NCBI GenBank assembly: GCA_016190895.1
Contig: JACPPR010000071.1
Span: 1 to 43,910, forward strand
From: Chloroflexota bacterium
GTDB lineage: Bacteria > Chloroflexota > Dehalococcoidia > Dehalococcoidales > UBA2162
DNA length: 43,910 nucleotides
Direction of reading: 5' to 3'
Shown: positions 18,527 to 22,780 of the stretch, piece by piece
How positions within the stretch are numbered: the stretch's first letter is position 1
Layout of the letters: each line of letters starts with the position of its first letter
Translations under genes and position numbers: made by a program
The notes under the pieces: model-generated
What the model was told of the DNA's origin: nothing
Database searches by the model: none
What the model saw: only the letters and a program-made list of their open reading frames with translations

Positions 18527-19798
18527 CTATCTAAGTCGTCTTTCCACCGCCTTGGCGTGGGCTTCTAGCCCTTCGGCTTTAGCCAGGGTCTGGGCTGCAG
18601 GACCTAGCTTTTTCAGCAAAGCGGCATCGACATCTATAACGCTGGTCAGCTTGACGAAATCGGTGACGTTGAGGGGAGAACTGAAGCGCGCTGTCCCGCC
18701 GGTGGGCAGGACGTGGCTCGGCCCGGCGATGTAATCCCCCAGCGCCACCGTCCCTTTTTCACCAAGAACAATGCAGCCGGCGTTGGAGATTTTGTCCACG
18801 TAAGAAGCGGCATCCTTTACCTGCAGCAAGAGGTGCTCCGGAGCGTAAAGATTAGCCAGCTCGATGGCCTGGTTGATGTTAGCCACCACCGCCATCACCC
18901 CCCGCAACCCCAGGGAATCCCGCGTACGCTCCGAATCGGGCAACTCACCGAGTTGCTTCTCGACCTCCTGCATTACCTTGTCCACCATAGATTGCGACGT
19001 GGTCACGAGCACCGCCGAACCCAGGTTATGCTCCGCCTGCGCGAGAAGGTCAGATGCCACGTAAGCCGGATTAGCTGCAGCATCGGCGATAATCAAGACC
19101 TCGGAAGGCCCGAAAAGACCATCAATGCCGACCACCCCGTAGACCAGCTTCTTGGCCAGTGTTACGTATACATTCCCCGGCCCGCAGACTTTGTCCACGG
19201 CAGGCACAGACTCAGTACCGAAGGCTAGAGCGGCGATTGCCTGTGCGCCCCCGACGGAGAATATCCTGTCCACTCCGGCGATATCAGCGGCGACTAAGGT
19301 CAGCGGCGAAACGCTGCCCGATTTGCCTGGCGGCGTCATCAAGATGACGTCTTTGACGCCGGCCACCTTCGCAGGGGTCACCACCATTAGCAGTGAAGAG
19401 GGCAAAGGAGGAAAACCAGGGGTGTAGACGCCGATGCGGTTCAGCGGGCGCATCTTCCACCCCAACCCACCCCTGTCGCCATCGCGGACAAGGTTCCTTT
19501 TCTGTGCAGTATGATACGAGCGAATCCGGCGCGCGGCCAGCTTCATTGCTGAGAGCAGCCTGGCGTCCACCTGGTCATATGCGGCCGCTATTTGCTTCTT
19601 GCTCACCTCCAGCGAGGTCAGCTTCACGCCATCGAACTTGAGGGTATAGTCACGGACAGCGGCATCCCCCCGTTTGCGCACGTCGTCTATCCAGGTGCGC
19701 ACGTCCTTCTCACGCTCATCGGTCTCAAGCGCCGCCGCAGAGGGCCCGCGCCTGGATAAAGCTTCTTTCGCTGCTTCAAAACCTTTAATGATTCTCAA
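18527..19798 (-). CDS. hisD: histidinol dehydrogenase
   Basis: HisD oxidises L-histidinol to L-histidine in two NAD+-dependent steps and is a Zn enzyme. The product is 423 aa. Zn ligands and catalytic residues are readable: LLAQAEHN (Gln and His; the usual following Asp is Asn), NLYAPEHLLL (catalytic Glu-His), LGDYIAGPSHVLPTGGTAR (Asp) and LEAHAKAVE (C-terminal His). GPGNVYVTLAKKLVYG is the NAD-region signature. Start TTG 19798, with only a weak AGGATTC ahead. It is downstream of hisG across a 152-bp repeat. Confidence 0.95.
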   Translation of the reverse strand: MRIIKGFEAAKEALSRRGPSAAALETDEREKDVRTWIDDVRKRGDAAVRDYTLKFDGVKLTSLEVSKKQIAAAYDQVDARLLSAMKLAARRIRSYHTAQKRNLVRDGDRGGLGWKMRPLNRIGVYTPGFPPLPSSLLMVVTPAKVAGVKDVILMTPPGKSGSVSPLTLVAADIAGVDRIFSVGGAQAIAALAFGTESVPAVDKVCGPGNVYVTLAKKLVYGVVGIDGLFGPSEVLIIADAAANPAYVASDLLAQAEHNLGSAVLVTTSQSMVDKVMQEVEKQLGELPDSERTRDSLGLRGVMAVVANINQAIELANLYAPEHLLLQVKDAASYVDKISNAGCIVLGEKGTVALGDYIAGPSHVLPTGGTARFSSPLNVTDFVKLTSVIDVDAALLKKLGPAAQTLAKAEGLEAHAKAVERRLR

Positions 19799-19803
19799 GG
19801 AAT

Positions 19804-19975
19804 CCTAACCCCCTGGCCCCCTTCCCTTTGTAAAAGGGAAGGGGGAATACGCCCCTTTGAGACGAGCTTGGTCTTCTGCAAATCTCCCATTTTACAGGCA
19901 TCTCCCTTTCGTAAAGGGAGACTGAGAGGGATTCAGAATAGAAAATCCCCCTAATCCCCCTTTGCCAAAGGGGGA
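19804..19975. repeat. CCCTTT/AAAGGG repeat cluster between hisG and hisD
   Basis: The cluster holds hairpins TTCCCTTT-GTAAA-AGGGAAGG and ATCTCCCTTTCGTAAAGGGAGA and ends ATCCCCCTTTGCCAAAGGGGG. The block ATCTCCCTTTCGTAAAGGGA followed by GACTGAGAGGGATT is the reverse complement of the block at 41148-41180. The repeat overlaps the last codons of hisG, encoding its terminal PPPLAKGD. Confidence 0.75.
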
Positions 19976-21381
19976 GGTGCTAAGGCTTTCCTCAGAATCT
20001 CCGTAATCTCCCTAATCCTCTTCGCCTTGGCCGGGTTGTCAATACTGTTCTTATTGCCGATGAGGCGTCCGGTGGACTCAAAAATGGTCTCGATAATCTT
20101 AAGATTATGTCTGGCAATGGTGCTGCCTGTCTCGGTATTCTCGATGAGCAGGTCGGCGTCCTCGGGCAAAAATGCTTCGGTGGCGCCCCAGGTGGGAATG
20201 ACCTTGTAAACGCCGAGGTGATTATCCCGGGCGTACTTATCCGAGATATTGGTGTATTCCGAGGCCACTCTGACCGTCAGGCTGCGTTCGGCGTAAAGCT
20301 GTCTCAATTCAGCGATGCTTTCCACCGGCAATTCTTTGCTGACCACGGCCACTATCCGCACCCAGGCAAACTTCAGGTCGAGAAGCTCGGTGGCCGGGCT
20401 GGAAGGGAACTGGTAGAGGTGGTCGGTCAGCCAGTCCTTGCCGGTGATAGCCAAATCGAAATTGCCGTTCGCCACCTGCATCGGCATATCCTGAGGCCGG
20501 ATGACCTTCATACTGACGCCTTCCAGATGTGAAACCGGACGGCGGTTGCCCGTTGTTGAGGGGTAATCATCAATTCGGATACCCGCTTTGCTCATTAGCT
20601 GGCAGGTCGGCGATTGCTGGTGGCCGTCTGGTAAAGCCAGCCTGATTACCTTCCCATCCACATCGGGAACAGGATAGCTGCCTGATGACGGCTCTTTTCT
20701 GGCAGAAGCTGGTAGGGAAGGCGTTTGTGCCGCAGGCAGGTGGACATCCAGAGATGACAGCAGCTGGCTAAGGTCTTCCCTTTCCCAGCTATTTTTGTTG
20801 GCGATAAGACAGGCCTGAAAATCGAGCACATCGCTCACCGGTTTCAGGTTCTGTTCACCGGGTTTGCCGGCGACCAGCGCTAGTTCGGCGCTCTCCGGTG
20901 GGTAGCCCTCGGCCGCCCCCCACAGGGGAAAAACGCTGAACCGCCTCAGCCTGTTTTTCAGGGCAAAAGCCTCAGCCAGATTAGGGTACTCACTGACAAG
21001 CCGGATAATCTCTCTCTTCGCCTGGATTGCCTCAATAGATGGCGCCACTTTTGAACCGGATGCAACCATATATAACGCGCCTTTTCCATAGCCGAGATTC
21101 CTCAGCTTGACCAGCGGCGAAGCGGAGTATTTAGCCATTAGCTCCTCAAGCCAGTCCAGCCCGCAAATGCCCAGATCGTAGTTGCCGACGGCCACCTGGA
21201 TGGGAATATCCCTTTCGTGGAACATCTTGACCAGCAGGTTTGGGAAACGCTGGCTTTTCAGGCGGTAGTTGCGCGCGCCATCCGTGTAGCCGTCCAAACC
21301 CCAGCCAGCTTTCTCAAGGAGACTGGCCGTCTCGGGCAGAAGTTTACCTTTAGGTAATGCTACTTTCAGTTGTTTTGCCAT
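19951..21381 (-). CDS. hisG: ATP phosphoribosyltransferase with two tandem HisG domains
   Basis: HisG condenses ATP and PRPP, the first step of histidine synthesis. Short-form HisG is about 210 aa, but this protein is 476 aa and consists of two HisG-like halves. Half 1 (about 1-212) has ALPKGKL, GNYDLGICGLDW and SEYPNLAEAF, but its PRPP loop is replaced by VAGKPGEQNLK. Half 2 (about 243-466) has GNFDLAITGKDW, SEYTNISDKY and an intact PRPP loop NTETGSTIARHNL, but its N-terminal KGR-type motif is replaced by LPDGHQQ. A Pro/Ser-rich linker (about 213-242) joins them. The gene follows hisZ, as expected for a short-form HisG that needs HisZ. The start at ATG 21381 has a modest AAGG. The product may be a covalent pseudo-dimer (inference). 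Confidence 0.92.
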   Translation of the reverse strand: MAKQLKVALPKGKLLPETASLLEKAGWGLDGYTDGARNYRLKSQRFPNLLVKMFHERDIPIQVAVGNYDLGICGLDWLEELMAKYSASPLVKLRNLGYGKGALYMVASGSKVAPSIEAIQAKREIIRLVSEYPNLAEAFALKNRLRRFSVFPLWGAAEGYPPESAELALVAGKPGEQNLKPVSDVLDFQACLIANKNSWEREDLSQLLSSLDVHLPAAQTPSLPASARKEPSSGSYPVPDVDGKVIRLALPDGHQQSPTCQLMSKAGIRIDDYPSTTGNRRPVSHLEGVSMKVIRPQDMPMQVANGNFDLAITGKDWLTDHLYQFPSSPATELLDLKFAWVRIVAVVSKELPVESIAELRQLYAERSLTVRVASEYTNISDKYARDNHLGVYKVIPTWGATEAFLPEDADLLIENTETGSTIARHNLKIIETIFESTGRLIGNKNSIDNPAKAKRIREITEILRKALAPPPLAKGD

Positions 21382-21523: not shown

Positions 21524-22780
21524 CTATCCTAGCAGCTTCAAGACCTCTTTCGCCGTCTGTGCCTCGAACTTTTTGCGCTTAGAGCGGTCGGTCAGAACAA
21601 AATGGGGCGCTTTATCCCGCACATCGAGCAGCCATTTGTAGTTGGCCGGCGGCTGAGCGCCGAGACCTACTTCAGCATTGTGACCGGCTTCGTGCAGGGT
21701 GGCCGCCAGCTTAAAAGCTCCCTTTAGTCCGGCTCCGGACTCAGCCCTAATCAAGATTTTCTGAGCCTGCGGTCCCGCTAAAGTCCCCACTTTGGTCGAC
21801 TTCATCAGGTGGTCCAGATAAAGAGCAAAGCCTGAAGCCGGGGTCTGCTTACCCCCCATCAGAGGAATCAGGTGGTCATATCTGCCCCCGCCCCCAATCT
21901 GCTCGCCATCAATCAGGAGCTTGAACATCAGCCCGGTATAGTACTCGAAACCCCGCCCGGAAGTCAGGTCGATGTGATAATCGACTCCCACCGATTCCAG
22001 AAGCTCCACGGTATCTATAAAGTTACTCAGCGCAGGCTCCAATTCTGAGGATTCCCCATTAAACAGGGCTTTCAGATTTTTCAGAAAACCCGATGATTTC
22101 CCCTTCATCTCTAGCAAAGTGGCTAAAGCCTGCCCTGAGCTTGTCGAATGGGTGCTGCCCAGTTCAGGCCTCTCGGATTTCGTCATCGCCAGGACAGCCT
22201 CGTCACCATCCAGAAGCCGGTCATATATCTTGTGCTGCTCCTCGGGACTCAGGCCGAACTTAGCCAGTAACGCCCTTATCAAGTCGGCATGTGACAGTCT
22301 CAGCTCGACATTTTGAAGCCCCAATTGCTTCAAGACTCCCAGAGCCAACAGTACCAGTTCGACCTCGGCGACGGTCGAGCCAGCGCCGATAAGTTCCACT
22401 CCGCATTGCCACTTTTCCCGGCTCTCTTTTCCAGTCTCCTCAAAACTAAAAACGTTGGTCACGTAAAAGAGCTTGGCCAGCTTTCTGGCGCTCAGAGCCT
22501 CGATGTAAAGCCGGGCGATGGGAATGGTGCCATCGGGTCTGAGCACTACCCGCTCCCCACTCCAGCCATCCCAATCGAGGAAGGAATAGACCTTGCCCAG
22601 GCGGCTAGGGGTAAGCGTGCCGGTCGAGGTAAACAAATGCAGGTACTCGAGGGTAGGCGTCCTGACCTCTTCATAACCCCACTTCAGACAGCAATCCCGA
22701 AAGACTCCCTCGATGAGGCGGAATTTTCTCATATCCTCAGGAGATAGGTCCTGAGTTCCCTTAGCCCTCTGCACTCCCAT
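21524..22780 (-). CDS. hisZ: ATP phosphoribosyltransferase regulatory subunit HisZ
   Basis: HisZ is a class II aminoacyl-tRNA-synthetase paralogue that assembles with short-form HisG and makes it active and histidine-sensitive. The product is 418 aa. HisRS-like motifs: RTPTLEYLHLF, RPDGTIPIAR, QCGVELIGAG (the GVELIG form typical of HisZ) and GGGGRYDHLIPLMGG. The HisRS 'RGLDYYTG' appears as RGFEYYTG. Neighbourhood (hisG follows) favours HisZ over a true HisRS. Residues 211-218 (HSTSSGQA) are encoded by a dispersed intergenic repeat (22128-22152) inserted in frame. ATG 22780 has AGGAG 5 nt upstream. Confidence 0.88.
   Translation of the reverse strand: MGVQRAKGTQDLSPEDMRKFRLIEGVFRDCCLKWGYEEVRTPTLEYLHLFTSTGTLTPSRLGKVYSFLDWDGWSGERVVLRPDGTIPIARLYIEALSARKLAKLFYVTNVFSFEETGKESREKWQCGVELIGAGSTVAEVELVLLALGVLKQLGLQNVELRLSHADLIRALLAKFGLSPEEQHKIYDRLLDGDEAVLAMTKSERPELGSTHSTSSGQALATLLEMKGKSSGFLKNLKALFNGESSELEPALSNFIDTVELLESVGVDYHIDLTSGRGFEYYTGLMFKLLIDGEQIGGGGRYDHLIPLMGGKQTPASGFALYLDHLMKSTKVGTLAGPQAQKILIRAESGAGLKGAFKLAATLHEAGHNAEVGLGAQPPANYKWLLDVRDKAPHFVLTDRSKRKKFEAQTAKEVLKLLG
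22128..22152. repeat. CCTGCCCTGAGCTTGTCGAA repeat inside hisZ
   Basis: GCCTGCCCTGAGCTTGTCGA lies within hisZ. Its other copy in the window (18307-18331, reverse orientation) is intergenic. In hisZ it is read in frame as HSTSSGQA. Confidence 0.8.

Follow-up and report, generated by a model that had tools for sequence, protein, structure and literature searches.

How can one protein chain carry two copies of HisG, each without a different active-site motif, and which of the two would do the work of the enzyme? The question is raised by a 476-aa open reading frame in a contig of a Chloroflexota bacterium (class Dehalococcoidia, order Dehalococcoidales; GenBank assembly GCA_016190895.1, contig JACPPR010000071.1). 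The whole stretch of 43,910 nucleotides that was analyzed is hereafter called the window. The original prediction described two HisG halves joined by a Pro/Ser-rich linker, with the N-terminal PKGK motif kept in half 1 and the PRPP loop kept in half 2. It proposed either that half 2 is catalytic and half 1 is a built-in regulatory pseudo-subunit, or that the halves complement each other at a shared site.

The double hisG gene and its neighbors

PF01634 (194 bits; cut-off, 25.5) and TIGR00070 (224 bits; cut-off, 75.75) each matched the 476-aa protein in two stretches; TIGR00070 is the HisG equivalog model. The two halves scored 122 and 77 bits when they were taken separately in a genome-wide scan, and no domain besides the two HisG domains was detected in the protein with Pfam and NCBIfam. 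These results bear out the predicted frame, with its two halves and linker, and the HisG homology of both halves; the frame lies on the minus strand. The double HisG is the sole HisG of the source genome, which is 79% complete. The coordinates of the gene, its parts, and its neighbors are summarized in Table 1.

Table 1. Positions in the window of the double hisG gene, its sequence elements, and the adjacent genes.
Feature	Position	Strand	Basis
Double hisG ORF	19951..21381	minus	476 aa, ATG start, no internal stops; two HisG domain stretches
Half 1 (residues 1–218), HisG domain without PRPP loop	20728..21381	minus	Domain bounds; loop absent in 119/119
Linker (residues 219–241), Pro/Ser/Ala-rich	20659..20727	minus	Predicted disordered, pLDDT <50 at 220–237
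Half 2 (residues 242–468), HisG domain with intact PRPP loop	19978..20658	minus	Domain search and alignment
Half 1 K11-G12-K13, at the position of PaHisG K30-G31-R32	21343..21351	minus	Alignment; 84/119 half 1s with K or R at both K11 and K13
Half 1 R37, equivalent of trans-acting PaHisG Arg56	21271..21273	minus	Alignment; role per PMC9734150
Half 1 AGKPGEQ (171–177) at the PRPP-loop position	20851..20871	minus	Alignment
Half 2 D252-G-H-Q-Q256 in place of (P)KGR	20614..20628	minus	D in 99% and H in 100% of 119 half 2s
Half 2 G278 at the Arg56 position	20548..20550	minus	R/K in only 1/119 half 2s
Half 2 PRPP loop E414-NTETGS-T421	20119..20142	minus	[ST]Gx[ST] in 119/119 half 2s
hisZ, regulatory HisRS-like subunit, 418 aa	21524..22780	minus	Best model TIGR00443; just upstream of double hisG
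hisD, histidinol dehydrogenase	18527..19798	minus	TIGR00069, 491 bits; just downstream of double hisG

The hisZ gene that had been noted next door lies directly upstream and is distinct from hisS. It scored 223 bits against TIGR00443, below the cut-off of 272; judged from its sequence, it is a divergent HisZ, for which the HisZ models score under their cut-offs. A true hisS is located on another contig of the source genome (465 bits, against 206 bits for the HisZ-like gene), so that the gene beside the double hisG does not encode the tRNA synthetase. HisZ was found upstream of all 102 doubles that have enough flanking sequence, and HisD was found downstream of 107 of 112.

Two repeats were observed in this region. 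At 22135–22190, hisZ contains an 8-residue in-frame insertion (STHSTSSG-like) that is absent from 96% of the 90 aligned rows, and the insertion lies at a perfect copy of a palindrome-like repeat, CTGAGCTTGTCGAA. At 19951–19985, the double HisG ends in PPPLAKGD, which is encoded by the palindromic repeat CCCCTTTGCCAAAGGGGGA; with at most 3 mismatches allowed, 10 matches to this repeat occur in the window, where 0.06 would be expected.

Distribution and origin of the double HisG

The conservation census covered 119 distinct double HisG proteins. A scan of the genome contigs placed relatives at 80 loci, nearly all of them whole-length doubles, with 45–71% identity where they were fully aligned. 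In the order, HisG was present in 135 of 151 genomes, and 131 of these 135 contained two HisG stretches. Two genomes of the order, G090 and G098, have a canonical single HisG, and the sequences of G036 and G039, which are also without two stretches, may be contig-edge fragments. A further sequence, from G001, was considered as a truncated HisG and rejected, as an N gap is found at that place. In the class, 67 of 107 genomes had two HisG stretches (one of these, G262, had three) and 40 had a single stretch. Elsewhere in the phylum, 79 genomes with HisG were covered; none of them yielded a double, and one (G286) contains two HisGs on separate contigs. Two records named Deltaproteobacteria (L037 and L052) contain a double HisG with the same neighbors and are probably mislabeled MAGs.

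The source genome is fragmented into 96 contigs, as would suit an assembly or annotation artefact in which two tandem hisG genes were wrongly joined. However, the same in-frame fusion occurs in more than 100 genomes, including three closed chromosomes (CP070810, CP070842, and CP070693; loci L025, L027, and L048) and five single-contig genomes (G019, G055, G073, G083, and G091). An assembly join, which the original prediction had named as a refutation, is therefore discarded, and we regard any such artefact as having a negligible probability. Chance is likewise excluded, because the fusion is conserved in more than 100 independent genomes. In the single-contig genome G091, probably that of Dehalococcoides mccartyi 195, the double HisG is 472 aa long and matches HisG in two stretches; a PRA-CH gene is present there, and no HisG_C was found.

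The 119 doubles were split into halves, and the alignment of these halves also included 60 single HisGs and two HisGs of solved structure. In a tree of a 102-row subset of this alignment, the half 1s, the half 2s, and the single HisGs each occupied one side of a branch, with SH-aLRT values of 100, 98, and 99, respectively, which indicates a single duplication. Moreover, in comparison with most single HisGs, the two halves have an insertion and a deletion of one residue in common. The fusion of two unrelated HisGs is ruled out by the tree and the shared indels; the halves arose as paralogues in a single tandem duplication, with all single HisGs outside, as is characteristic of gene elongation. 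The simplest reading of these sequences would be a single duplication and fusion that predates the split between the two deep clades of the class, followed by vertical descent. The ancestral gene would have encoded a homodimeric HisG, and the two copies, after tandem duplication and fusion, would have split the roles that the subunits of a homodimer play for each other.

Both halves appear to have remained under constraint. The identity between half 1 and half 2 within a protein is 29%, and the mean identities between proteins are 47.6% for half 1 and 56.3% for half 2. Half 1 could in principle be a drifting, non-functional relic that is kept only through the in-frame fusion. This explanation would fit the loss of its PRPP loop and R73 (see below) and its somewhat faster evolution, since half 2 is more alike than half 1 in 97% of protein pairs. 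However, the dN/dS values of close pairs are 0.02–0.22 for half 1 and 0.03–0.27 for half 2, and this similarity indicates that half 1 is under purifying selection and is not drifting. Furthermore, half 1 is kept in 119 of 119 doubles over two deep clades of the class, contains residues that are invariant across the order, and is predicted with confidence to pack on half 2. We consider the relic explanation very improbable.

Division of the active-site residues between the halves

Residue numbers were anchored on Psychrobacter arcticus HisG (PaHisG) by comparing the wild-type and R56A chains in the PDB output. This comparison places Arg56 at the R of SRK and not at the R of RxxDVP, and E163 falls at its literature position under this numbering. 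Arg56 crosses the HisG dimer to the pyrophosphate of the PRPP bound by the other subunit, and its replacement (R56A) costs 42-fold; it is the only residue reported to cross the interface, and E163 forms a hydrogen bond to the 3′-OH of PRPP (PMC9734150).

The window protein has PKGK and AGKPGEQN in half 1, at the PKG(R/K) and PRPP-loop positions, respectively, and PDGHQQ and NTETGST in half 2. Across the class, the PRPP loop, (D/E)xxx(S/T)Gx(S/T), was found in all 119 half 2s and in none of the 119 half 1s. E163 is present in 100% of half 2s and 84% of half 1s. R73, where all single HisGs have R or K, is retained as such in 99% of half 2s and 15% of half 1s. These frequencies agree with the earlier proposal that half 2 is likely to be the catalytic half. 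The Arg56 position is occupied by R or K in 110 of 119 half 1s and in a single half 2; R is present there in 49 of 60 single HisGs. Within individual proteins, 109 of the 119 doubles have R/K at this position in half 1 and not in half 2. Nine doubles have it in neither half, and 11 of the 60 single HisGs are without Arg at position 56, so the residue, although conserved in HisGS, is not universal. Half 2 also has conserved arginines two and three residues past this position (R280 and R281), which could substitute for Arg56, and the alignment of the loop could be off by one or two residues. The residues with which a HisG subunit binds PRPP are thus kept in half 2, and the residue that a subunit contributes to the site of its neighbor is kept in half 1. 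This is the pattern expected if the halves pair and only the half 2 site works.

The PKG(R/K) motif gave a less clear picture. K or R occupies both the K30 and R32 positions in 84 of 119 half 1s, and D and H occupy them in essentially all half 2s, which read P/A-(D/N)-G-H at this place in 119 of 119. PKG is invariant in the half 1s of the order, and the deep lineages have TGD, AGD, or RGD. In several class-mates, whose only HisG is a single one, this position reads KGS, KGE, or DGE, and (P/S)KGR is missing from many single HisGs of the phylum, so the motif does not define the family. The loss of PKGR from half 2 is therefore less telling and is no evidence of an impaired half 2 or of its repair by half 1.

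The original prediction consequently stands in part. Throughout the class, half 1 has lost the PRPP loop and half 2 has lost PKG(R/K), and the pattern of complementary loss is real; the PKGK of half 1 is present in the window and is not a class-wide constant, and it is not the key to the complementarity. Complementarity is better supported for the trans-acting Arg56, which half 1 has retained and half 2 has not; the original prediction did not name this residue. True complementation, in which the PKGK of half 1 and the PRPP loop of half 2 form one shared site, would suit the invariance of PKG in the half 1s of the order and the DGH found in all half 2s. However, only Arg56, and not Arg32, is reported to cross the interface (PMC9734150), the half 1s of the deep lineages have TGD or AGD, and the sole single HisGs of the class are also without the motif. 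We therefore judge a site completed by PKGK to be improbable.

The structure of the window protein was predicted with AlphaFold2 from an alignment with 73 relatives (mean pLDDT, 89; pTM, 0.86). The linker was disordered at residues 220–237 in this model, and a relative of about 45% identity gave a pTM of 0.83. Values of 0.83–0.86 imply an inter-half error of about 3–4 Å (roughly 3 Å for 0.86), and a pTM near 0.5 was calculated for two folded halves without mutual orientation. The prediction is thus one of halves with a definite mutual packing, which would presumably be the arrangement of the HisG dimer. The best Foldseek matches were short-form HisG subunits (target TM, 0.83–0.89); these matches are single-chain HisGs, each covering half of the query.

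Taken together, the double HisG is probably a covalent pseudo-heterodimer with one active site, in which half 2 binds PRPP and half 1 is a degenerate partner, operating with HisZ. PRPP would be bound by the intact loop of half 2, and the reaction would be carried out there. Half 1, having lost the binding of the PRPP phosphate, would pack on half 2 as in a normal dimer as a pseudo-catalytic partner, and its R37, the equivalent of Arg56, would probably be offered to the pyrophosphate in the half 2 site. Each chain would thus have one working site, against two per dimer, under the control of HisZ. We infer the dimer-like geometry, the donation of the arginine in trans, and the inactivity of the half 1 site from the evidence above.

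A regulatory pseudo-subunit and a complementing partner are compatible roles, and the evidence favors a half 1 that supports a single site structurally and supplies a residue to it in trans. The residues invariant in the half 1s of the order are PKG, Y32, E56-x-D58, N67-Y68-D69, E80, Y132, R144, G155, and Y160-P161. The invariance of PKG argues against a purely structural partner, which would seem not to need it, and together with the other conserved cleft residues it leaves room for a possible effector-binding role. Half 1 might accordingly be a built-in allosteric subunit, whose old site binds a nucleotide or another effector and controls half 2 besides or instead of HisZ. Many of its invariant residues are found at motif positions of the former cleft and not just on a surface, and half 1 is nearly as conserved as half 2, with a similar dN/dS. 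However, HisZ, already the regulator in known short-form enzymes, accompanies every double with enough flank, and the cleft residues may just serve the fold and the interface. We consider the allosteric explanation unlikely. A stricter form of the preferred pseudo-heterodimer is a one-way trans site, in which half 1 serves only as the donor of the trans-arginine (possibly with an effector site derived from the dead active site) and half 2 only as the PRPP-binding acceptor, with the invariant His254 replacing Arg32 or acting as a general base. This form, suggested by the conserved residues, is conceivable and is proposed tentatively.

Comparison with known systems

The double HisG is best explained, on present sequence evidence, as the catalytic subunit of the short-form, HisZ-dependent ATP phosphoribosyltransferase (EC 2.4.2.17) of Dehalococcoidia. 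The open-access literature that was searched yielded no account of a HisG fused or arranged in tandem; the architecture with two HisG domains is visible in public databases and has apparently gone unremarked. If the proposed model is correct, the committed step of histidine synthesis was redesigned across a lineage of Dehalococcoidia, to which the organohalide-respiring Dehalococcoides apparently belongs. The enzyme would have a single active site in each chain and two degenerate partners, a pseudo-HisG and a pseudo-HisRS. As the PRPP binder and the donor of the trans-arginine would be located in separate halves, each could be mutated alone, which is impossible in a homodimer, and the double offers a direct test of the cooperation of HisG subunits.

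The pseudo-heterodimer resembles the short-form HisGS–HisZ enzymes of Psychrobacter arcticus and Acinetobacter baumannii (PMC9734150, PMC10795190) in the HisG fold, the PRPP loop (in half 2), the absence of a C-terminal regulatory domain, and the adjacent hisZ, and a dimeric catalytic unit with a trans arginine is expected in both. The short-form complex, however, has one HisG domain per chain and is a homodimer that forms a hetero-octamer with HisZ4, whereas the double has two HisG domains per chain, one of them without the PRPP loop. Its trans Arg and PRPP loop are located in different halves, and in half 2 PKGR is replaced by DGH and Cys115 by Val. We call the double a variant and not a plain short-form member because of its two domains per chain.

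The long-form HisG, which is the sole HisG in other families of the class (for example, L204, L207, and L210), has the same catalytic domain. It consists of one catalytic domain and HisG_C (PF08029), and the scanned single HisGs of the class are of this form. In contrast, PF08029 was absent from the double proteins and from the six double-only genomes checked, all of which contain PRA-CH, a later step of the pathway. At L207 and L216, a long-form HisG gene of the class is immediately adjacent to a HisS/HisZ-like gene that encodes about 505 aa and has its HisS match split in two.

Ordinary HisGs can also take the place of the double. In G090 (L222:2464–4044), a canonical HisG is fused behind HisZ in one 527-aa ORF and lies ahead of hisD in the place of the double. 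In family f71, G262 has both a double and a long-form HisG (L202 and L211), and its relatives G208 and G252 have only the single type; a replacement in progress is possible in G262, as relatives of its family have only one type or the other. The natural replacement of the double by an ordinary HisG indicates that the double does the ordinary job. In G098 (L095), which belongs to the genus of G090, HisZ and a canonical HisG are encoded by adjacent genes.

HisZ itself, a pseudo-histidyl-tRNA synthetase, is similar to half 1 in that a degenerate paralogue was recruited as a partner of HisG in the same complex. HisZ, however, has an unrelated fold and is encoded by a separate gene, whereas half 1 would be a second degenerate partner, derived from HisG. 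The double also resembles the products of gene elongation, hisA and hisF (and, as proposed, hisB and hisD), in tandem duplication, fusion, and divergence of the modules; hisG is missing from the his genes that were reviewed as elongated or fused (PMC7284861). With the double, hisG would join the his genes shaped by gene elongation. The elongation events of those genes are ancient and universal, whereas that of the double hisG is lineage-specific and left one module without substrate binding.
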